A DNA stretch of 64,000 nt from Thermoproteus uzoniensis 768-20 (lineage in GTDB: Archaea > Thermoproteota > Thermoprotei > Thermoproteales > Thermoproteaceae): the NCBI RefSeq assembly GCF_000193375.1, contig NC_015315.1, forward strand, positions 938,622 through 1,002,621, written 5' to 3'. Position 1 is the first letter of the stretch. Each line of letters opens with the position of its first letter. The notes under the pieces are model-generated. The model was not told the origin of the DNA. It was given only the letters and a program-made list of their open reading frames with translations, and ran no database searches. Positions 6,949-61,959 of the stretch are shown in pieces. Both the position numbers and the translations under genes were made by a program.

Positions 6949-7247
6949 TAAGGGTGCGCGTGGCCGACGCGGCCAAGTGCGTGGAGGATCGCGTGCTCGA
7001 TATTGTCTGCACCTGCAATCTGAGCGCCCTCGCCATATCCGAGTCGGGGACCGTCGTGTTGCCGCGTAGGTTCTCCGGCAGATCGCTGAAAGAGGTGGAG
7101 GGGGAGCTCTGCGGCAGATGTCTGGAGGTGGCCGACGGCGTGAGGTCGTACCTGCTGGCCTTCCTGACGCTGAGGATGGGCCTCGAGGAGCTGGCCAAGC
7201 TGGTGGCGGCCATGTGCGGCGGCTCTGTGGAGACGCCGAATGGCTAG
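6945..7247 (+). CDS. Small Cys-containing hypothetical protein
   Basis: A 100-residue protein read from a GTG at 6945 that overlaps the previous stop (GTGA). It carries the Cys pattern C-x-C (VCTCN) and C-x-x-C (LCGRC) plus two further Cys, which could bind a metal or carry persulfide. Together with the TusA-like gene at the operon head this suggests sulfur or metal handling, but I recognise no family. Its last 4 nt overlap the end of bluB on the other strand. Confidence 0.55.
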
Positions 7248-7909
7248 AGCTTAACAGCTCTGAGCTCCTCCAGCAGATCCGCCGGCGGCCTTCTGCCGAA
7301 CTCGTCGACGTAGACCAAGGCGTCTAGGGGGAGTCTGGACAGCCACCCCTTCTCCTCAAGCTCCGGGCGCTCCGGGAAGCGCGTGACGTAGCCCAGAGTC
7401 AGATACGCCACGAGGTCGACGTGTTGGGGTATGCCCAGTATCCTCTTCACGTCGTCCTTGTGGAAGAAGCTGACCCAACCGACGCCTATGCCCTCGGCGA
7501 CGGCCGCCAGCCACAGATTGCCCACCGCCAGGACTGCGCTGTACTGGCAGAGCTCCGGCATTGTGGTTCTGCCCAGCACGTGGGGCCCGAAGCGGGTAGG
7601 GTCGCACGTGACGGCTAGGTTGACGGGGGTGTCCAGTATGGCCTCCACCTTTATGTTGTCGAAGATCTGCCTACGTCTCTCGTCGAGCAGGGAGCGGAAG
7701 CGTTCCCTCTCCCTCTCCACGAGCTCCTTGATCATCCGCCTCTTCTCCAAGTCGTAGACCAATATAAAGTTCCAAGGTTGCGAGAAGCCGACGGAGGGGG
7801 CTAGATGGGCCGCCATCAACAACTTGGCCAGGACCCGCGGCGGGATCGGATCGCTCCTGTAGTAGCTCCTGACATCCCTCCGTTTCTTTATGGCGTCGTA
7901 GAGATCCAT
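7244..7909 (-). CDS. bluB: BluB-type nitroreductase (5,6-dimethylbenzimidazole synthase-like)
   Basis: A 221-residue flavoprotein of the nitroreductase fold. BluB hallmarks are RRDVRSYY near the N terminus, [16 protein letters not shown] (residues about 34-49), and [26 protein letters not shown] for the second half of the FMN site. BluB cleaves reduced FMN to make the lower ligand of cobalamin. Archaeal homologues may make the base or act as general nitroreductases, so substrate is uncertain. No other cobalamin gene lies nearby. The downstream end meets the small Cys-protein gene tail to tail. Confidence 0.75.
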
Positions 7910-7948
7910 GGATATGGGAACGGATTATAAGTTATCGGGCCTGGACAA

Positions 7949-9127
7949 TTAGGGGGCCATATCGCCGCAAGCCAATACCGGCGGGTATAAGTCGGTGTAG
8001 TTGTACTCTATATTGGGTTTGACAAACCGCTCGATTGCCTTAGCCGTCGCGGAGTCCACGAAGATGACCGTGTGCGGGTACGCCATATGGGTCTTGTACT
8101 CCGCCACAACCTTGAGGGTGTCGACGTCTAGAACGTAGACGGAGCGTCCCAATATGTCCGTAACGTACACCTCGCTACAGTCCGGGTTGGCGAACACGCC
8201 CCAGGGGGCCTTGCCGAGCTTCAATACGGCTATGGGCTTGAGCCCAGGCGCCTGGAGGACGTACACGGAGCCCTCCATCGGCGAGGTGGCGAACAGCTTC
8301 CCGCGGCAGACGGCGAGGCCCGGCAAGCCGGGCGGAGGGGCTGACGTGGGGAAGTACGCGAGGACTTGGCCGCGCGAGTTCATCTCCACCAGCAAAGACA
8401 TGGCGTCTATGTCGACCGGCGAAAGCCTATAGCCGGGCTCTATCGGGTGGCCCTCGCCGTATATGTATACGCCGTCGGTGGTCAACATGTGGAACGAGAG
8501 AAAGACGTACCGCAGAGCCTCGTGGGAGTTGACGTAGGGAGGCCAGAAGGCCAGCACGGGCACTCTCAGTGACCTGCCCCCGACCATCACCACTAGGTAC
8601 GGCTCGCGCATCAGCGGCGCCACGACGTCGCCGTTGAGGTATATCGGCGCGTGTGGGTAGAGGCCGACGGGGACGCACTTCCCCAGAACCTCGTTGTAGA
8701 GATCCAGCGGGCATAGATAGCCCTTCCTGTCCCCGAAGTCGGAGACCGCGAGCCACAACACGCCGCCCTCCACAGGCGCTACGTCGGGGGAGTAGTACAG
8801 GAAGTGGCTCACGTTGCCCGGCGCCTCTATTATCGCCGAGGGGCGGCTCAAGTCGCCCAATTCGTATATGTATATCCACCGCCCCACCTCCGGCGTCGTC
8901 ACCACCAGCCGTCCGCCCCAGAGGAAGCCGTCGTACATGGTGAAGTTGGGCAACGCGCCGTTGAGCGCAACGCCGCCGACGTACTTCCCGTCCACGTATA
9001 GCTCTAGGCTGGGCGGGCCGCCGCCCAGGATCACGAACGTGTCGGGCTTGTCGGGCCGACCCAAGAGCGACGAGGCCAGGGCTACTAGGGACAGCGCGAG
9101 GGCGATTGGCAAAAGCCAACGGGACAT
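7949..9127 (-). CDS. Secreted or membrane-anchored beta-propeller protein
   Basis: A 392-residue exported protein: signal peptide or anchor at residues about 4-22, then repeated four-strand blades. The C-terminal part has YncE-like blades (VYVLQAPGLKPIAVLKLGKAPWGVFA, then EVYVTDILGRSVYVLDVDTLKVVAEY). The Cys in CPLDLYNEVLGKC could form a disulfide. It is the last gene of the TusA-DsrE-YeeE operon, with its ATG overlapping the YeeE stop by 1 nt. Position suggests an extracytoplasmic role in sulfur uptake or oxidation; substrate unknown. Confidence 0.65.
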   Translation of the reverse strand: MSRWLLPIALALSLVALASSLLGRPDKPDTFVILGGGPPSLELYVDGKYVGGVALNGALPNFTMYDGFLWGGRLVVTTPEVGRWIYIYELGDLSRPSAIIEAPGNVSHFLYYSPDVAPVEGGVLWLAVSDFGDRKGYLCPLDLYNEVLGKCVPVGLYPHAPIYLNGDVVAPLMREPYLVVMVGGRSLRVPVLAFWPPYVNSHEALRYVFLSFHMLTTDGVYIYGEGHPIEPGYRLSPVDIDAMSLLVEMNSRGQVLAYFPTSAPPPGLPGLAVCRGKLFATSPMEGSVYVLQAPGLKPIAVLKLGKAPWGVFANPDCSEVYVTDILGRSVYVLDVDTLKVVAEYKTHMAYPHTVIFVDSATAKAIERFVKPNIEYNYTDLYPPVLACGDMAP

Positions 9128-10380
9128 TACCTGAGCTTGACGGCGCGCAGGAGGCCTAGCCTTATTGTGGGGGCCGCCGCCAGGCGGCGCAGAGTCCCGT
9201 CGCGCCAGCTGCCCACCAAGCCTATGAACAACGCCACGGAGTAGGCGGCGGCCGCGCCGGCCGCCAGATTGCCGCCGAAGAGATCTTGAAAGCGCAGGAC
9301 CGGGCTCAGGTATATGGACGTCGTGAAGAAGAAGGGCCAGACGTACGACAGGACCACCATGCCGGAGACCATGCCGAACCAGGCTATCAAGTGGGGTATG
9401 CTGCCCTCCCCGCTCCTGTAGGCGCTACTGAAGCTACAGCCTGCCACCAACACCATGCCGATCCCGAACAAGGCCCCTCCGACAAACGTGTGCGCGCCTA
9501 CCGGGAACAGAAACTCCCTGTACTGCCACCCCAGGCCGTATTTCAGTATCAGGTTTCCAGTTATCATTATAGACAGCGCTATGGCCACCGCCCTGGCGTT
9601 GCCGCCGTACGGCGCCAGCCGCGACCAGAAGCCGTCCCTCAACATCGAGGTGAAGCATATCTCGCCCTTAGAGCCGGCGAAGCCGTAGCCTATCCCAAGC
9701 AATAGAAACGCTATGGCGGTCACGACTCCCAGCAGCCACCAGTATAGAGCAGTTACGAGCGTCATGGCCAAGGCGAATACCAGGACCTTGCGGTTGTCCA
9801 CGCGGTTGCCCAGCTCTATCCTTATCGGCTTGGATCTGCCCATTAGGCCCATCAGATATTCCTCTATCAGCTTGGTCCCTATAAAGCTGCCGACCACCAT
9901 CCCCAAGAAGAACACAAAGCCGGAGAACACGAGGCTCTGGATAGTCGCCACGAAGTTGCCTATGTTGCAACCCAACGCCAGCCTGGCGCCGAAGCCCAAC
10001 ATGAGGCCTCCGACGACCGACAAGACCACCGTGGCGCGGTTCGCCGGCCATCTGAGCCGCCACTGGCCCTCCAGCGCCTTGGCTATCATCGCGCCTAGCA
10101 TGAAGCCCCACACTATCATGAACTCCTTATTCCTCGGGTCCCAAGGAGGCGCCGCCGGCGCGACGAACATGGGCGAGTTGGGGTTGAAGTAGGCCCACTG
10201 GCCCGTCTTGAGGAGCCCTCCGCTCAAGACGTTGTACAGCCAGCCTCCGAACTGGTTTTCGGGCCCCGTGATGTACCAAGGACTCCTCACCACGATTATC
10301 TGCAACACGGCTATGACGCCTATCACGGCGCCGGCGATCTCGGGCTTCCAGGGCTTTTTCAAGAAGTCGGGGACCCCCAT
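9127..10380 (-). CDS. YeeE/YedE-family sulfur transporter
   Basis: A 417-residue membrane protein with two homologous halves and about 10-12 spans. Characteristic Cys-containing loops are ALGCNIG (C138), GEICFTS (C242) and VAGCSFSSAYRSGEGS (C315). The family imports thiosulfate or other sulfur species, or in other species is linked to selenium. It follows the DsrE gene by only 2 nt and precedes the propeller gene. The order TusA-DsrE-YeeE indicates that imported sulfur passes to the cytoplasmic carriers. Confidence 0.85.
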   Translation of the reverse strand: MGVPDFLKKPWKPEIAGAVIGVIAVLQIIVVRSPWYITGPENQFGGWLYNVLSGGLLKTGQWAYFNPNSPMFVAPAAPPWDPRNKEFMIVWGFMLGAMIAKALEGQWRLRWPANRATVVLSVVGGLMLGFGARLALGCNIGNFVATIQSLVFSGFVFFLGMVVGSFIGTKLIEEYLMGLMGRSKPIRIELGNRVDNRKVLVFALAMTLVTALYWWLLGVVTAIAFLLLGIGYGFAGSKGEICFTSMLRDGFWSRLAPYGGNARAVAIALSIMITGNLILKYGLGWQYREFLFPVGAHTFVGGALFGIGMVLVAGCSFSSAYRSGEGSIPHLIAWFGMVSGMVVLSYVWPFFFTTSIYLSPVLRFQDLFGGNLAAGAAAAYSVALFIGLVGSWRDGTLRRLAAAPTIRLGLLRAVKLR

Positions 10381-10382
10381 AC

Positions 10383-10757
10383 TCAGAACGTGACGATCCT
10401 CCCGTCCCCCACCTCCTCGAGGAAGGTGTACATGGAGGACACCGCGTCGACCAGCCCCAGCGCCTTGTAGTCGTCCTCAGATACGCCGAAGATCCTCCCC
10501 GCCGTCTCGCACGCTATGATCTTCAGCCCCATGGGCTTCGCCGCGGCGAACAGCTCCTGCCACGTCACGTGTAGCTCCCTCATCGTCTTGAGCTCCGGCG
10601 ACTCGGGCCAGTTGCTCCGCCCGGCCAAGGCCAGCACCGCTCTGCCCGTGGCGAAGACAAGGACCTCGTTGCCTCTCGCCAGCTCTGTAGCTATGTACGT
10701 GCCGGCTTCGTAGAGCTTTACGGGATCCTCAGACGTTATTATCACGCCTACCTTCAT
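10383..10757 (-). CDS. DsrE-family sulfur relay protein
   Basis: A 124-residue protein of the DsrE/DsrF/TusD fold. Family features are the N-terminal KVGVIITSEDP strand, VLVFATGRAVLAL, and the conserved Cys in IIACETAGRIFGV (C83), expected to carry a persulfide. It ends with a short hydrophobic IVTF strand. It lies 1 nt downstream of tusA and 2 nt upstream of the YeeE gene. It closely resembles the DsrE-like gene at 61408, suggesting paralogues. Confidence 0.8.
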   Translation of the reverse strand: MKVGVIITSEDPVKLYEAGTYIATELARGNEVLVFATGRAVLALAGRSNWPESPELKTMRELHVTWQELFAAAKPMGLKIIACETAGRIFGVSEDDYKALGLVDAVSSMYTFLEEVGDGRIVTF

Positions 10758-10758
10758 A

Positions 10759-11004
10759 CTATAGAACTATGGTTATCTCCCACACGCCTCCCTTGGCGTC
10801 CACCGACACCGACTTGGCGCCCGCCTTCTGGGCCACGGACTTTATGTTCTCTATAGACGGCGGGTTGTCTATTATGACCCTCAACGTGCTGCCCTTCGGC
10901 AACTTCGACAAGGCCTGCGACGTGTACATCTGTGGATACGGGCAGACGTAGCCCTTGAGATCCAGCTCGTAGGAGTTGTCCCCGGTCCTCCTAATCGAAG
11001 GCAT
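10759..11004 (-). CDS. tusA: TusA-family sulfur carrier protein
   Basis: An 81-residue sulfur carrier with the intact motif GYVCPYP (C21). The second half is LRVIIDNPPSIENIKSVAQKAGAKSV, typical of TusA/SirA proteins. It passes persulfide sulfur between thiol proteins. It heads the operon TusA-DsrE-YeeE-propeller, with a TATA-like box (11021-11031, read leftward) about 27 nt before the ATG. Confidence 0.85.
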   Translation of the reverse strand: MPSIRRTGDNSYELDLKGYVCPYPQMYTSQALSKLPKGSTLRVIIDNPPSIENIKSVAQKAGAKSVSVDAKGGVWEITIVL

Positions 11005-38402: not shown

Positions 38403-39753
38403 ATGTCGGGCAAGGTGACCTACGTTTCGGTCCTGGCCGACGAGTCTATCCACCCGGCGTACGAGAAGGCCCTCTCGGAGGTCGAGGAGCTTCTGGGGAG
38501 GGAGTGGCCTATCTATATCGGCGGGAGGGAGGTCTACACAACCGGCAAGTTCGAGAAGAGGAGCCCGATCGACGTCTCGATAAGGCTGGGCGTATTCCAG
38601 AGGGGCGCCGAGCTGATACGCAAGATGGACGGCTACAGACTGCCTATGTCGTCCCCGAACCCCAACGAGAGGCCTCTCAGCGTCTTGAGGCCCTACGGGG
38701 CCTGGTTCGTAATATCTCCCTTCAATTTCCCCATTGCGTTGGCCAAGGGCATGCTCACGGGCGTCCTCCTCATGGGGAACACCGCGGTCTGGAAGCCGAC
38801 CAGCGAGGCGCCCTTCACGGCGACGCTTGTCTACCAGCTCGCCGTGGAGGCCGGCGTGCCGCCCGGCGTGTTGAACTTGGTCACGGGCCCCGGCGACGCC
38901 GTAGAGGACGTGGCCACCGGCGACCCCAGAGTGGCCGGCATAGCCTTTACGGGGTCGAGAGACGTCGGCATGAGGCTGTACCGCCTCTTCACCCAGAGGC
39001 AGCCGTGGCCCAAGCCCATAGTGCTGGAGATGGGCTCGAAGAACCCCACAATAGTCACCGCGAAGGCGGATCTGGACAAGGCGGCGGAGGGCGTGGTGAG
39101 GGCGGCCTTCGGCTTCGGCGGCCAGAAATGTTCGGCCACCAGCAGACTCTACGTGCAGAGGGAGGTATACGACAAATTCGTGGAGAGGCTCGTCGAGAAG
39201 ACGAAGGAGATTGTCAAGATAGGCGATCCCAGGAGGCGCGAGGTGTTCCTGGGCCCCGTCATAAACAGATCGGCCAGGGAAAACTACAAGCGGTATGTGG
39301 CCGACGCGCTGTCGGCGGGCGGCAGGCTGAGGTACGGCGGGAGGGCGCTCGAGGACGGCGAGTTCTCCAAGGGCTTCTACGTGGAGCCTGCCATAATAGA
39401 GGGCGTCGCCCCCGACAGCTATCTCTGGAAGACTGAGCTGTTCCTGCCCATACTCCTCGTGGATAGGTTCGACACGCTCGACGAGGCTCTGAGGAAGGCC
39501 AACGACACAGAGTACGGCCTTACGGCCGGCATATTCTCGGAGGACTCCAACGAGGTGGAGTACTTCTTCGAACATATAGAGTTCGGCGTGGTCTACGCCA
39601 ACAGGGGGGGGGGGGGGCGCCACGACAGGCGCGTGGCCGGGCGCCCAGCCCTTCACCGGCTGGAAGGCGTCGGGGGCTACCGGCAGAGGCGTCAACGGAG
39701 TATACTACCTCCTCAACTTTGCAAGGGAGCAGGCGAGGACGGTCGTCTACTGA
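38403..39753 (+). pseudogene. Aldehyde / 1-pyrroline-5-carboxylate dehydrogenase, frameshifted in a G14 tract
   Basis: An aldehyde dehydrogenase of the P5C-dehydrogenase type, oxidising glutamate semialdehyde to glutamate with NAD(P). Catalytic E209 (LEMGSKNP) and C243 (GFGGQKCSATS) are present, with FVISPFNFPIA and TGSRDVG cofactor motifs. After VYANR the frame is lost in a run of 14 G (39604-39617). Removing one G restores GATTGAWPGAQPFTGWKASGATGRGVNGVYY and a natural stop at 39753. This may be a sequencing error, a true mutation or a variable tract. The unshifted frame runs on to 39860 and is meaningless after the tract. Confidence 0.8.
39604..39617 (+). repeat. Homopolymer of 14 G
   Basis: Fourteen consecutive G inside the dehydrogenase gene. 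With 13 G the conserved C-terminal dehydrogenase sequence is in frame; with 14 it is not. Long G tracts of variable length are known in Pyrobaculum genomes. Confidence 0.9.
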
Positions 39754-39798
39754 AGCGCCGGCCGAAAAAGGTTAAATATCATATTTTTGATATCACTC

Positions 39799-41301
39799 AT
39801 GGTCGAGCTCAAGTTAAAGCACTTCGGCGAGGCCGGGCCGGGAGGCCTCCCGAGATTTAAGGCGCCTGTGGCCGGCAGATGGGTCGAGGGCGTCTGGGTC
39901 CCCGTCAAGTCGCCGATAGACCTCTCCCCCTACGTCGAGGTGGCGAGGCCCTCCGGCGAGGCCGTCGAGGAGGCCCTGCGCGCGGCCTACGAGAGGGGGC
40001 GTTGGGCCGTCAGAGATATGCCGGGCGAGAGGAGGCTCGCCGTCTTCAACAAAATGGCCGACCTCCTGGAGCGGTATCGGGACGACTTTGTCGAGGCGCT
40101 GGTGGTGGGGAACGGGAAGACGCGGCCGGCGGCCAACGGAGAGGTCTCGGCCTCTATAGAGAGGCTCAGGAGGGCGGATCTCGACGTGCGGAAGCTCTAC
40201 GGCGAGTACGTCCCGGGCGATTGGTCCTCCGAGAGCCTCGAGGCAGAGGCGATCGTCAAGCGGGAGCCTCTTGGGGTAGTCCTCGCGATCACTCCGTTCA
40301 ACTACCCGCTCTTCGACGTGGTGAACAAGTTCGTGTACTCGGCCGTAGCCGGCAACGCCGTTCTGGTGAAGCCCGCCTCCTCCACGCCTCTCCCGGCGCT
40401 CATGTTCGCCAAGGTGGCCGAGGAGGCCGGGTTCCCCATGGAGGCGTTCTCGGTCCTGCCCATACCCGGTAAGGCCGCGGAGGAGCTGGCCAAGGACAGG
40501 AGGATAGCCGTCATCTCGCTGACCGGGAGCACGGAGACGGGCGAGAGGCTGATGAGGGCGGCCGGGATCAAGTCCTACATAATGGAGCTCGGCGGCGGCG
40601 ACCCGGCGATAGTCCTCGACGACGCCGACCCCGCCTTCGCCGCAGACAGGATCGCGACGGGCATAATAAGCTACGCGGGCCAGAGGTGCGACTCCATAAA
40701 GCTGATCCTCGCCGAGCCGAAGATCTATGGGGAGTTGAAGGACCGGCTGGCCGAGAGGCTCAACGCAGTCAAGGTGGGGGACCCGAGGGATCCCGACGTC
40801 CAGATGGGCCCGCTAATCGACGTGGAGACGGCCGAGGAGTTCGAGAGGGCCGTGAAGGACGCCGTAGAGAAAGGCGGCGTCGTGCTCGCCGGCGGCAGGC
40901 GCAGGGACAACTACATCTGGCCTACGTTGATCGAGGCGCCGGCCGAGAGGCTGAGGGACATGTACCTCTACAACCACGAGGTCTTCGCAGCAGTCGCCTT
41001 GATAGCCGAAGTGAGGGACGTGGACCACGCCATAGCTCTCGCCAACGGGCGTAGGTACGGCCTCGACGCGGCGATATTCGGGAACGACATCGTCAAGATA
41101 AGGAAGGCCATAAGGCTCCTCGAGGTGGGCAATATCTACGTCAACGACTACCCGAGACACGGCATCGGCTACTTCCCGTTCGGCGGCAGGAAGGACTCCG
41201 GAATTGGGAGGGAGGGGATAGGGTACCCCATAGAGTACGTCACGGCCTACAAGACTGTGGTGTACAACTATAGGGGGAGGGGCGTCTGGGAATACCTGTA
41301 G
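39799..41301 (+). CDS. gapN: Non-phosphorylating glyceraldehyde-3-phosphate dehydrogenase (GAPN)
   Basis: A 500-residue aldehyde-dehydrogenase-family enzyme that oxidises glyceraldehyde 3-phosphate directly to 3-phosphoglycerate in the modified Embden-Meyerhof pathway. It strongly resembles Thermoproteus tenax GAPN as I remember it: VKSPIDL start, [26 protein letters not shown], catalytic E263 ([12 protein letters not shown]) and C297 ([11 protein letters not shown]), and the end [23 protein letters not shown] at 39799 is supported by the TATA-like box GGTTAAATAT (39770-39779). It sits directly behind the broken dehydrogenase gene but has its own promoter. Confidence 0.92.
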
Positions 41302-41307
41302 TTTTTC

Positions 41308-43005
41308 CTACCTTATCTCGAAGTCCTTATAGGCGCCTTCTGCGGGCTCCCAGGCCAGCTCGGCCACTCTGCAGTTGAAGCGGGCGCAGAGCTCCTGCAG
41401 CAGCTTCTCTACTCTGTCCCTATCCCCTTCCACCACCAGCTCGACTCTGCCGTCGGGCAGATTGGCGGCGTAGCCCGTCAGGCCCAGCGCCCTCGCCTTA
41501 GCCCTAGCCGTCGGCCTGAACCCAATCCCCTGCACGTCGCCCTCGAGGTAGGCCCTCGCCCTGACGGCCTTCCCGGCGAGGCCTCCCAGCACTTGCGCCG
41601 CGCCGACTAGCTTCTCCCTGAGCTTCTCGCTGGAGATATACGCCAGCGCCTCCCTGGGCACCGCCAGCCTGCCCTCGCCTTTGCCCAAGACCCTCCCCAC
41701 GACGGCGGGCCTCAGCCTGGGTATCTTGGACAGCTCGTCGAGCACCTCGTCGGCGAGCTTCTTGTGGAGGAATACAGCAATGGCGCCGTTGGTCCCAGCC
41801 GTGGCGTCCGGCATTATGAAGTTCTCCGCGGCGAATCTGGACACGGACGGGCCGAGGAGCGGCACGTCCCACAGCTCCACGTCGACGCCGGCCCGCTCGG
41901 CGACCTCCTTAAACACGAAGACGCCGGGCCCCGATATGTCTATGGTGGCCGCTATGTGGGCCTCGGGGTCGAACCTCTCGCCTAGGTCGGGCAGGTGGTC
42001 GTATATGACCCTCGCCACGTCCGCGTTGGGGGCCGCCATGAGCTCGAGAACCCTCCTCTTCTCCTTCTCGAACTGGTCCAGCGGCATGACGGACTTCTCG
42101 AAGGCCTTGAGGAGCTCCTCGTCGGTGTTCACGGCCACGTAGGTGGTGAAGTAGGCGAGCTCGCCGAAGGGTCTGGTCACCAGCACCACAAAGCCCTCGC
42201 CCAGCTGGCTGTAGTAGGTGGGGGGCTCTCTGTCGAGGCGGCCGTAGGCCGTGGCCCCCAAGAGCAGATAGCCTCTGCCCGGCTGCGGGGCCTCGACGAG
42301 CCTGCCCAAGGAGGCGGCGTGGGACTCCACCGCGGCCTTGACCCTGGCGCGGTAGGGCTCGGGGGCGTCGTAGACGGGCGCTATCTCCACGTCCTTGTAG
42401 ACGCCCTTGACGTATAGGTCGTTGAGGGCGTTGTTGACGGCGACGGCCGCCTGTAGGGGCGAGTCGAAGTCCTCGGAGGGGTCTATGACCTGTATGGTGT
42501 CGTTGTTCGCCAATACGTAGCCCTCGCCCGGCTCCGCCTTGAGGAAGTCCACCATGAAGAACTCGGCGCCTTTCTTGGTGCTGACTATGGAGTGGCCCTT
42601 GCCCAGCCAGACCCTATGCCGCGAGGAGCCGAGGGCCTTGTACAGCCTCGCGGCGTATTCGGCGAATTTGGAGGGGGTGGCGGCCTTGGCCATGTATAGC
42701 TGGACCAAAACCACTGCGAGGTCTGGCGCGTAGGACTCGAGAAAGGCGGGGTCTATATGGGGATCCTCGGGGTCTAGGTACAGCCTCCTCAGCTCCGCGC
42801 CGGCCCCCCTCATTATCGCGGCGTCCTCCCTAGGCGCTATGACCAAGTTGAGCCTCCTCACGTCGTCTCTCAGAAGCTCCAGCGCGGGGTACAACACGTC
42901 GTAGAGATCCACCTTGACGGAGCACCCGAGCGATAGGGACTCCAGCGCTATCCCCGCCTCCCGGTAGAGCCGCACCCGCTCCCTGAACTTCTCGACGGGG
43001 TTCAT
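41308..43005 (-). CDS. SelD-like AIRS-family ATPase fused to acylphosphatase domain
   Basis: A 565-residue fusion. Residues about 20-470 resemble selenophosphate synthetase: LGCSVKVDLY keeps the catalytic C28 and K31 (CxxK), TIQVIDPSEDFDSPLQAAVAVNNALNDLY matches the ATP/Mg loop, and ATIDISGPGV the later Gly motif; a large insertion separates the first two. Residues 482-565 are an acylphosphatase-like domain (GDVQGIGFR at 489-497 and GYAANLPDGRVELVVEG). Its ATG overlaps the stop of a tusA gene. No selenocysteine machinery is visible here, so a thiophosphate or selenophosphate donor role is inference. Confidence 0.72.
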   Translation of the reverse strand: MNPVEKFRERVRLYREAGIALESLSLGCSVKVDLYDVLYPALELLRDDVRRLNLVIAPREDAAIMRGAGAELRRLYLDPEDPHIDPAFLESYAPDLAVVLVQLYMAKAATPSKFAEYAARLYKALGSSRHRVWLGKGHSIVSTKKGAEFFMVDFLKAEPGEGYVLANNDTIQVIDPSEDFDSPLQAAVAVNNALNDLYVKGVYKDVEIAPVYDAPEPYRARVKAAVESHAASLGRLVEAPQPGRGYLLLGATAYGRLDREPPTYYSQLGEGFVVLVTRPFGELAYFTTYVAVNTDEELLKAFEKSVMPLDQFEKEKRRVLELMAAPNADVARVIYDHLPDLGERFDPEAHIAATIDISGPGVFVFKEVAERAGVDVELWDVPLLGPSVSRFAAENFIMPDATAGTNGAIAVFLHKKLADEVLDELSKIPRLRPAVVGRVLGKGEGRLAVPREALAYISSEKLREKLVGAAQVLGGLAGKAVRARAYLEGDVQGIGFRPTARAKARALGLTGYAANLPDGRVELVVEGDRDRVEKLLQELCARFNCRVAELAWEPAEGAYKDFEIR

Positions 43006-43238
43006 CTCCTCCTTATGACTATCCTCCAGAGGCCCTCGCCGACCTGCTCCACGCCGACGACCTCGTGCCCCTCCCTCCTCGCTATGGCCGGGACGTTCTG
43101 GACAGACGGCGGGTTGTCGGTCAGCACCTCCAGCACCTCGCCGGGCTCCATGGACCGCAGAGCCTTGAGCGTGGCCAGCTGGGGGTAGGGGCAGACGTAG
43201 CCTCTGAGGTCCAACACCCTCCTCTTGACGAGCTCCAT
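43002..43238 (-). CDS. tusA: TusA-family sulfur carrier paired with SelD-like protein
   Basis: A 78-residue TusA-type protein with the motif GYVCPYP (C16) and EVLTDNPPSVQNVPAIARREGHEV. The ATG at 43238 is chosen because a leftward TATA-like box (GTTTAAGG, 43260-43267) precedes it and longer frames have no good start. The stop overlaps the ATG of the SelD-like gene (ATGA). The carrier is well placed to give sulfur or selenium to the ATPase. Confidence 0.82.
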   Translation of the reverse strand: MELVKRRVLDLRGYVCPYPQLATLKALRSMEPGEVLEVLTDNPPSVQNVPAIARREGHEVVGVEQVGEGLWRIVIRRR

Positions 43239-43288
43239 GTCCCGGATCTCGACCGGGGCCCTTAAACCCCGCGAAGAGTGCAACTATT

Positions 43289-44293
43289 TCACTCCTCGGC
43301 GACGGCGAGCCCCGACCTGTAGAGGAGATCTACGAGGTGTTCGTGGACCGGCCTCTGCCTCTCGGGGTAGAACACCTTGGCCCCCTCCTCGTACAGAAAG
43401 ACGAACATGTCCCGCCGCCTCCTCAAGCCGGAGGATGGGGGACTGCCCCAGATAACGAAGACCTTGTTGACTCTGCCCCCTCTCGAGACGGATATGGGGA
43501 CCGCTATCCAGGGACAGACGTAGACCTCGGCGCTACCCTCGGCGGTCCCGTCCATGGAGAGATACGCCAGCCCGCAACGGGACCTCTCGTCGAACTCGTA
43601 CTCGCCGTGTAGGCCGAGCGCCGACGCCACGCGCCTCGCCCTCCTCTCCTTGAGCGAGAGCAGGGCCTCCAGGACTTGGTCCGGATAAGTCGCCGGGTTC
43701 ACCACGAGGCCGTGCTCGGGGTCGTACGCGGCCAGCCTCCCCATCACGAGCCTAGACCGCGGCTTGGGTCCGTAGACCTCCTCGTAGAGCTCCCAGTCGG
43801 CGTCGCCGGCGACCTCGCCCTCTATTAAGGCCAGCGAGCTCTCGCCCAGCGCCGACAGCTCCCCCACGACGTCCACCTCCACGGCCGGACCTGACGCCAT
43901 GTAGCGGCTCAGGAGGCCGGCCAGGTAGGGAGGCGCGGCGACGACGTCGTCGGAGAAGTGCATGGCGAGCCCCCAGCGTATCAGCCTCTCCAAGGCTTCC
44001 GGCAGCCCCAACAGGTCGAGCCCTATCCTCAACTGCCCCTCGACGGCCAAGCTCCTGGCGTATTTGGCGTAGAGCGCGGCGGTCCTCTCGTCGTCTACCC
44101 TCGACGAGACGAGCGCGGCGAGTTCCCCCGCCCTGGCCTCGGCCGCCTTCACGTCGTCCTCCCCGGCCCCCTCCGCGGCCTCCAGGAGGGCCCTCCAGCG
44201 GGGGCCGTACCGAGCCTCGAAATCCGCCTCGAGGACCTCCTCGGAGCCCTGGAAAACCGCCCTCTGGAACCTCGCCTCAAGGATCTCCGCCAC
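43289..44293 (-). CDS. Hypothetical protein
   Basis: A 334-residue soluble protein. The N-terminal half is helical and acidic, the C-terminal half has strands and three Cys (ERSRCGLAYL, EVYVCPWIAVPI). GTG start at 44293 with a leftward TATA-like box (44312-44321, GGTAAAATAC). No family recognised. It ends 50 nt before the tusA-SelD-like pair, on the same strand but with a separate promoter between. Confidence 0.6.
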   Translation of the reverse strand: MAEILEARFQRAVFQGSEEVLEADFEARYGPRWRALLEAAEGAGEDDVKAAEARAGELAALVSSRVDDERTAALYAKYARSLAVEGQLRIGLDLLGLPEALERLIRWGLAMHFSDDVVAAPPYLAGLLSRYMASGPAVEVDVVGELSALGESSLALIEGEVAGDADWELYEEVYGPKPRSRLVMGRLAAYDPEHGLVVNPATYPDQVLEALLSLKERRARRVASALGLHGEYEFDERSRCGLAYLSMDGTAEGSAEVYVCPWIAVPISVSRGGRVNKVFVIWGSPPSSGLRRRRDMFVFLYEEGAKVFYPERQRPVHEHLVDLLYRSGLAVAEE

Positions 44294-60249: not shown

Positions 60250-60343
60250 GGTCGCTGGGCGTCTCCATCTATAAAAATCTTCCCCGCAACGGGCTCGACC
60301 GGCTCATTTCAAAAGTTATATATGGAATCCGGATTTGTGGCTT

Positions 60344-61372
60344 ATGAAGCTGGGCAAGATAACGCGCGACGTCTTCGACTCGGTTATATACCCCAGGCTG
60401 GGCGCCAAGAGGCCCGACGTGTTGGTCCCGCCGCAACACGGAGTCGACGTGGGGGCGATAGATCTAGGCGACGGGCGGGTTTTAGTCGTCAAGACAGACC
60501 CCGTGTTCATAGTGCCCCAGTTCGGCTTCAAGAAGGCGGCGTGGTTCGCGGTGCATATCCTCGCCAGCGACGTGATGACGTCGGGGATCCCGCCGCAGTA
60601 CGCCGCCATAGACCTCAACTTGCCCGTGTCCATGACGGACGAGCAGTTCGCCGAGATGTGGGAGGGCCTCCACGAGGCCATGGCGGAGATCGGCGTGTCG
60701 GTTGTCGCTGGCCATACGGGCCGGTACGAGGGCACCGACTACCCCATGCTCGGCGGCTTCACGATGTTCGGCATAGGGCCCAAGGAGAGGCTGGTCACGA
60801 CGAGGGGGGCTAAGCCCGGCGACCAGATAGTGATGACCAAGGGGCCGGCTATAGAGGCCACCGCCCTGCTCGCCAACTTCTACCCCGACTACTTCAAGGC
60901 CAGGCTGGCCCCCGACGTGTTCCAGGAGGCGTACGACCTCTACTGGCAGATGTCCTGCTGGCGCGACGGCCTCATAGCGTCGAGGATCGGCGTCCACGCC
61001 ATGCACGACGCCACCGAGGGAGGCGTCTGGGGCGCCTTGGTGGAGATCGCCGAGGCGAGCGGCGTCAAGATAGAGGTGTACGAGGAGCGGCTGTTCGTCA
61101 AGAGGGCAGTCGCCGAGCTGACCAAGGCCGTGGGCATAGACCCCTGGAGCTCCATATCGGAGGGCACCTTGATAATAGCGACGGACAGAGGCGAGGAGGT
61201 GGTCGAGGCGCTCAGGAAGGAGGGGATAGAGGCCGGCGTGATCGGGGAGGTTAAGGCCGGCGGTCCCGGCGTGGTCTTGAGGAGGAGGGGCGGCGCCGCG
61301 GAGCCCATAGCCCACCCGCGCGAGGACCCGTTCTGGTACGCCTTCAGCAAGATAGGGCAAATGTTGCACTGA
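60344..61372 (+). CDS. AIR-synthase-related (HypE/ThiL-like) ATPase
   Basis: A 342-residue protein of the PurM/HypE/SelD/ThiL superfamily. ATP and metal motifs: [62 protein letters not shown], and [19 protein letters not shown] near the C-terminal domain start. It lacks the HypE C-terminal PRIC sequence and the SelD N-terminal CxxK. It heads an operon with DsrE-like, TusA-like and GNAT genes, suggesting it phosphorylates or activates a sulfur-carrying substrate. TATA-like AGTTATATAT (60314-60323). Confidence 0.78.
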
Positions 61373-61407
61373 CCGCGCTGTTTTTCTCCCCATATCTGGG
61401 AAGATCC

Positions 61408-61743
61408 GTGCAGGGGGTGATATTGGAGGCCGACGAGCCCGAGAGGCTCTACGCCTTCGCGACGTACGTGGCCACGCTGGTGGCGCGCGGCGAGCCTGTC
61501 GCGGTCTTCGTCACGGGGAGGGCCGTCAAGGCCTTCTCCAGACAAGGCTACGCCGGGCCGGACCTGCCCGAGTCGATGGACTGGCGGAGGATATTGGCCG
61601 ACGCCAAGGAGCTCGGCGAGGTTAAGATCTACATATGCGAGACGGTGGCCAAGGCCTACGGCGTCTCCGAGTTCTGGCTGGCCGACGGGGTGGGGTCCAT
61701 GTTCAGCTTCCTTGAAAACGTAAATAGCGTAGTCGTCTTCTAG
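61408..61743 (+). CDS. DsrE-family sulfur relay protein
   Basis: A 111-residue DsrE-type protein with the presumed persulfide Cys C77 in KIYICETVAKAYGVSEFWL, matching the copy at 10383 in order of motifs (VFVTGRAVKAF, then ICET). GTG start at 61408. It lies 35 nt after the AIRS gene and 3 nt before the tusA-like gene, so it is probably in the same operon. Confidence 0.78.
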   Translation: MQGVILEADEPERLYAFATYVATLVARGEPVAVFVTGRAVKAFSRQGYAGPDLPESMDWRRILADAKELGEVKIYICETVAKAYGVSEFWLADGVGSMFSFLENVNSVVVF

Positions 61744-61746
61744 CGC

Positions 61747-61959
61747 ATGGAGGAGATAGACGTGAGGGGCAAGGCGTGTCCCGACCCCCTTAAGGAGGTG
61801 GCGGCGAGGCTGGCGGCCGCCCCGCAGGGAAGCCAGTTCAGGGTGGTGACAGACGACTACACCTGTTATTTAATGCTCAGGAGGCTCGCCGCTCTCAACG
61901 ACGTGAAGATACTGGGCGCCGAGGAGGGCGACGTATTCGTCCTCCTGCTCGAGAGATGA
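61747..61959 (+). CDS. tusA: TusA-family sulfur carrier protein
   Basis: A 70-residue TusA-type carrier with the motif GKACPDP (C11) and VVTDDYTCYLMLRRLAA. The second Cys in YTCYL parallels the C in the variant TusA-like protein at 6488 (DDACA). It overlaps the following acetyltransferase gene by 4 nt and follows the DsrE-like gene by 3 nt. Confidence 0.82.
   Translation: MEEIDVRGKACPDPLKEVAARLAAAPQGSQFRVVTDDYTCYLMLRRLAALNDVKILGAEEGDVFVLLLER

Follow-up and report, generated by a model that had tools for sequence, protein, structure and literature searches.

A SelD-like protein fused to acylphosphatase and coupled to TusA in Thermoproteus uzoniensis: a member of a described archaeal family with a possible role in sulfur activation

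Genes of the locus

The DNA analysed here (the window) is a stretch of 64,000 nucleotides from the genome of Thermoproteus uzoniensis 768-20 (NC_015315.1, positions 938,622 to 1,002,621), in which a short tusA gene overlaps a long gene encoding a SelD-like ATP-enzyme domain fused to acylphosphatase (ACP) (Table 1). The genes, their order and the ATGA overlap had been proposed in a first-pass annotation made from the sequence alone, and they are borne out by the sequence and by the Pfam and NCBIfam matches, as is the C-terminal ACP domain (PF00708, residues 485–564 of the 565-aa protein, 68.8 bits, E 5e-19). The tusA product, for which an alternative TTG start is possible at 43283, belongs to the TusA family (PF01206) by its domain score and by the cysteine of its CPxP motif (CPYP). 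In NCBIfam it comes closest to NF008242, a YedF-type model of 78 aa whose cut-off of 79 it narrowly misses (74 bits), whereas the model of TusA proper gives 36 bits. There are 8 TusA-like matches in the 1.94 Mb of the genome, from which we estimate the chance of a tusA adjoining a given gene at about 1%.

Table 1. Features of the locus (positions are those of the window)
Feature	Position	Strand	Evidence
tusA, sulfur-carrier protein, 78 aa, CPYP motif	43002..43238	-	Pfam TusA 5.2e-27, 93.9 bits
ATGA stop/start overlap (tusA TGA, SelD-like ATG)	43002..43005	-	sequence
SelD-like::acylphosphatase (ACP) gene, 565 aa	41308..43005	-	NF038049 649 bits; Pfam Acylphosphatase 5e-19; AlphaFold2
SelD-like ATP-enzyme domain, residues 1-465	41611..43005	-	NF038049, PDB profile search, profile-profile, fold search
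C28-x-x-K31 (C28-S-V-K31), counterpart of E. coli SelD C17/K20	42913..42924	-	invariant, 45 intact homologues
C-terminal acylphosphatase domain, residues 480-565, catalytic Arg and Asn in place	41311..41568	-	
334-aa protein of unknown family, 50 bp upstream of tusA, same strand as tusA	43289..44293	-	

The 334-aa protein, for which Pfam and NCBIfam gave no match, is possibly encoded on the same transcript as TusA; it was rejected as a conserved partner, since among 60 loci examined only one other related locus (L037) has a homologue. Two aldehyde dehydrogenase genes, 38403–39860 (+) and 39787–41301 (+), overlap by 74 bases. The latter encodes an NADP-dependent glyceraldehyde-3-phosphate dehydrogenase of the archaeal type (825 bits). 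The former gives matches to about residue 408 only and ends in an odd, frameshift-like C-terminal tail.

Two further tusA genes lie elsewhere in the window. At 60335–61959 (+), a gene for a HypE-like ATP-enzyme of the same superfamily (90 bits, under the HypE cut-off) is followed by a DsrE-like gene and a tusA. This trio was found in only three genomes, all of the genus Thermoproteus, and was therefore rejected as a parallel general system; homologues elsewhere occur without both small genes nearby. At 7244–11004 (-), there are, in a row, a tusA (10759–11004), a gene for a 124-aa protein, a YedE/FdhT-like Sulf_transp transporter (9127–10380), a beta-propeller protein and BluB, the 5,6-dimethylbenzimidazole synthase.

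Relationship of the N-terminal domain to SelD

The N-terminal domain matches NF038049 (SelD_rel_HyperS, "SelD-related putative sulfur metabolism protein"), the NCBIfam model for the SelD-like family of Li et al. 2014, over the full length of the model and well above its cut-off of 250 bits (residues 5–466, 649.4 bits). Whole-genome searches with Pfam AIRS_C did not detect the gene, and TIGR00476 (SelD) did not list it even at E<=10, its best match in the genome being another gene (70 bits, cut-off 125). This failure of the plain models is a limit of their sensitivity and not evidence against homology, because the profile search of the PDB, the profile-profile comparison and the fold search all reach SelD. 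The family profile identified human SEPHS1 (3fd5) as the best match in the PDB (E 5e-6), and the profile-profile comparison with SelD gave a probability of 99% (E 6.5e-18, residues 179–451). With the AlphaFold2 model, built from 45 family members (pLDDT 90.7, pTM 0.79), the fold search of the PDB returned SelD first (3fd5, E 1e-14, TM-score 0.66 on target), followed by HypE and ThiL. As modelled, the N-terminal part has the SelD fold and not an unrelated one, so that the proposal of the first-pass annotation is not refuted on this point.

The CxxK pair reported in the same annotation holds, and C28, K31, N192, D196 and D356 are invariant across the 45 sequences. The last three align with Asn87, Asp91 and Asp227 of E. 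coli SelD, C28 and K31 correspond to C17 and K20 by motif, and D61 and D169 are the counterparts of D51 and D68 by motif only. Judged as a SelD, the protein thus has the catalytic Cys/Sec-x-x-Lys and the Asn87/Asp91/Asp227 positions but not the TIGR00476 score. The GGH(S/T) signature, which in SelD follows the second helix of the N-domain, is absent at the aligned position, where a non-conserved VEAPQ is found, and an invariant GKGHSI occurs in an extra N-terminal region of about 90 residues, earlier than the place of GGH(S/T) in SelD. Because of the missing signature and the extra N-terminal stretch, the chemistry of the SelD-like protein may differ from that of SelD. The possibility that the N-domain was duplicated internally and that GKGHSI took the place of GGHSI is not supported by hhalign, which gave only E 0.04 for an alignment of 15 columns and E 0.01 when one half was compared with the other.

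Prior description, distribution and gene context of the family

The SelD-like family was described by Li et al. 2014 in Sulfolobales and Thermoproteales, with the ACP fusion in all Thermoproteales, with SirA-like (TusA) and Prx-like neighbours, and with synthesis of thiophosphate proposed as its function and called a hypothesis there (PMC4210487); the proposal has been restated in later reviews (PMC13188914, PMC9312934). In the literature searched we found no experimental or biochemical test of the family. The locus carries both the Thermoproteales-type ACP fusion and the SirA/TusA neighbour. It is thus a known member of a described family with a predicted function, and the first-pass annotation erred in calling the route undescribed, as the family, the fusion, the neighbour and the thiophosphate model had been published in that paper and an NCBIfam model exists. 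Our analysis extends the known distribution considerably and makes the context of sulfur-delivery genes clearer.

In the phylum, 57 of 398 genomes pass the NF038049 cut-off, and a scan of public genomes yielded 52 named loci, whose names come mostly from metagenome-assembled genomes (MAGs), so that single placements carry a risk of wrong binning. Copies with intact CxxK were found in MAGs labelled Desulfurococcales, Pyrodictiaceae, Acidilobaceae, Ignisphaera, Aeropyrum, Thermofilaceae and Geothermarchaeota, and in marine and groundwater Thaumarchaeota (L136, L139–L141, L143–L146, L150); the Desulfurococcales-type and Thaumarchaeota groups are supported by repeated MAGs. Two MAGs labelled Euryarchaeota also carry the gene (L142, again with intact CxxK, and L132, whose frame start is ambiguous), as does one record labelled Marinimicrobia (L158), which may be misbinned. 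Soil Nitrososphaeraceae have a divergent branch (22–25% identity) that has lost the lysine of CxxK (L161, L162 and L080–L085, the last six assigned to Nitrososphaeraceae by similarity to the first two). The L080–L085 copies adjoin CysH and ATP sulfurylase, which suggests a changed role in sulfate assimilation. In Vulcanisaeta sp. JCM 14467 (L055/L159) and Thermocladium modestius (L122) the fused gene is split over at least two frames, owing either to draft-assembly errors or to decay. A true SelD-type protein with C-S-C-K, which matches the SelD-like model weakly, was found in another family of the phylum (L086, genome G148).

A tusA gene is linked to the SelD-like gene in 43 of the 52 loci, across several archaeal groups, and nearly all linked TusA proteins keep the CPxP motif. 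The exceptions are five of the six Sulfolobales loci, two soil Nitrososphaeraceae, L115 and L157, which lies at a contig end. The coupling claimed in the first-pass annotation therefore stands as general but not universal, as homologues exist without a TusA neighbour, namely in most Sulfolobales and in soil Nitrososphaeraceae. The ACP is fused to the SelD-like protein in Thermoproteales and is the next gene in many Desulfurococcales-type loci, in one Thaumarchaeota MAG, in L067 (Sulfolobaceae group) and in the Euryarchaeota MAGs; Thaumarchaeota loci are mostly without a linked ACP, and most Sulfolobales copies have neither an adjacent tusA nor an adjacent ACP. Parsimony on the family tree requires 3 changes for the TusA linkage and 6 for the ACP state. 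Chance adjacency of TusA or ACP is rejected by the recurrence in distant lineages.

The catalytic Arg and the Asn at Arg+18 are kept in all 48 ACP domains scored (23 fused, 25 separate). A proline directly after the catalytic Arg is found in 23 of 23 fused domains vs 1 of 25 separate ones; the ACP domain of HypF also has a proline at this place. The fused ACP is an extra copy in T. uzoniensis, since two further ACP domains are encoded by genes of their own and a third lies in a frame of HypF length; with four such domains, the idea that the fused one is the sole acylphosphatase of this genome was rejected. Four genomes belonging to one other family, however, have no ACP besides the linked one.

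The remaining neighbours belong largely to sulfur metabolism. In 12 Desulfurococcales-type loci a gene for a Sulf_transp transporter (YeeE/YedE-type) lies upstream of tusA, in two of them on the opposite strand; the YedE/FdhT selenium model gives these transporters higher scores than TsuA does, at values far below both cut-offs. A tandem rhodanese is linked to the SelD-like gene and tusA in Thaumarchaeota, and a single rhodanese, an SQR-like and a DsrE-like protein occur near the Sulfolobales copies. Genes for DsrE, rhodanese, a sulfite-reductase-type protein, CysH and ATP sulfurylase are found among the neighbours of the family, and no thiophosphate-using gene recurs beside the SelD-like gene.

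A candidate sulfur-activation route and its alternatives

We propose, with a probability of roughly 0.45, that TusA and the SelD-like::ACP protein make up the last stage of a sulfur-activation route, which would lead from TusA-persulfide and ATP to thiophosphate, with ACP acting on acyl species. In other lineages sulfane sulfur would probably be brought in by the YeeE/YedE-type transporter and mobilised by rhodanese. The cysteine of TusA would carry the sulfur as a persulfide and hand it over to the SelD-like enzyme, which, via Cys28/Lys31 and the SelD-type ATP/metal site, would phosphorylate it with ATP to thiophosphate, which corresponds to selenophosphate with sulfur in place of selenium. 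The ACP domain would then act, next to the active site, on an acyl-phosphate or acyl-thiophosphate formed with this thiophosphate. Because it would act beside the active site on acyl species, we regard ACP as a putative pathway enzyme rather than as general housekeeping, and the output of the route would be thiophosphate or acyl-thiophosphate. The route is supported by the SelD fold, by the conserved residues of all three parts, by their recurrent linkage, by the sulfur-related neighbours, by the fused ACP being an extra copy and by the lack of known selenium uses; the Sulfolobales loci, mostly without adjacent tusA and ACP, and the Thaumarchaeota loci, mostly without linked ACP, count against it, as do the missing GGH(S/T) signature, the extra N-terminal stretch and the lack of a recurrent neighbour that would use thiophosphate. 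The thiophosphate idea of the first-pass annotation thus remains plausible.

Could the protein instead be a diverged selenophosphate synthetase that serves an unrecognised selenium use? In bacteria YedE and YedF co-occur with SelD (PMC5322559), and the carrier and transporter found here match that grouping, the tusA product being nearer to the YedF-type model than to TusA proper and the linked transporters nearer to YedE/FdhT than to TsuA, if far below the cut-off. However, in the genome of T. uzoniensis the searches for SelD, SelB and SelU gave nothing above cut-off and that for SecS gave no match, which extends genome-wide the absence of selenium genes reported for the window in the first-pass annotation, and none of the known selenium uses expected beside a SelD (SelB/SecS, SelU, YqeB) was found there. 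The 29–30 carrier genomes searched were likewise negative for SelD (E<=1e-25), SelU (E<=1e-10) and YqeB (E<=0.001), the search for SelB and SecS having covered T. uzoniensis only. With the sulfur genes that make up the other neighbours, this leaves the selenium function decidedly improbable.

It is rather unlikely, if easier to envisage, that the SelD-like and ACP parts work in acyl transfer in the manner of HypE and the ACP domain of HypF, making acyl- or carbamoyl-derived sulfur species with TusA as the sulfur donor; for example, ACP would cleave an acyl-thiophosphate to give a thiocarboxylate. Li et al. 2014 put forward a variant of this proposal as their Model 1 (PMC4210487). The place of HypE close behind SelD in the fold search, the HypF-like proline of the fused ACP domains and the recurrence of ACP fusion or adjacency speak for it, but SelD is the nearest relative in sequence as well as in fold, the SelD-specific CxxK is present, and there is no HypF-type carbamoyltransferase among the recurrent neighbours. 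A non-catalytic or regulatory role, as has been proposed for human SEPHS1, would fit the position of that protein as the closest solved relative and best PDB match, and also the soil Nitrososphaeraceae copies without the CxxK lysine; yet the 45 intact homologues show no variation at the catalytic residues, and those of TusA and ACP are kept too, and we consider such a role highly improbable.

We know of no thiophosphate activated-sulfur donor that has yet been established. The sulfur-activation route, if true, would establish thiophosphate as a biological donor of this kind and would explain why a relative of SelD persists in genomes without known selenium uses. A broader version is possible but doubtful: several archaeal lineages, mesophilic marine Thaumarchaeota included, would use thiophosphate that the SelD-like protein makes from TusA-persulfide as a general donor of activated sulfur, with a dedicated chain of transporter, rhodanese and TusA feeding it and with a coupled ACP step. 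The context of transporter, rhodanese, TusA and separate ACP points to TusA-persulfide, beyond free sulfide, as the substrate to assay, and an assay with TusA-persulfide is therefore the obvious first experiment, for which the mesophilic homologues may be easier to express than proteins of hyperthermophiles.

Among known systems, the locus agrees with the family of Li et al. 2014, as presented in the main text of that paper, in family membership, ACP fusion, SirA/TusA neighbour and functional guess, with no difference; the wider family extends beyond the two orders named there and has separate ACP, transporter and tandem-rhodanese neighbours that are not in that main text. SelD itself shares with the SelD-like protein the fold, as modelled, the CxxK pair and the positions of E. 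coli Asn87/Asp91/Asp227, but the identity to E. coli SelD is only about 17% in the aligned part, the score is below the SelD cut-off, and the GGH(S/T) place and the GKGHSI-bearing N-terminal extension set the two apart. The HypE/HypF system similarly ties an ATP-enzyme of the same superfamily to an acylphosphatase domain, whereas the SelD-like::ACP protein is without carbamoyltransferase parts and has the CxxK pair. Finally, the Desulfurococcales-type loci resemble the bacterial YedE-YedF-SelD grouping and the TsuA-TsuB system of thiosulfate uptake in placing a Sulf_transp transporter and a TusA-like carrier beside a SelD-type enzyme, and differ from them in that SelD is replaced by the SelD-like protein, ACP is added and the transporter falls far below the YedE and TsuA cut-offs.
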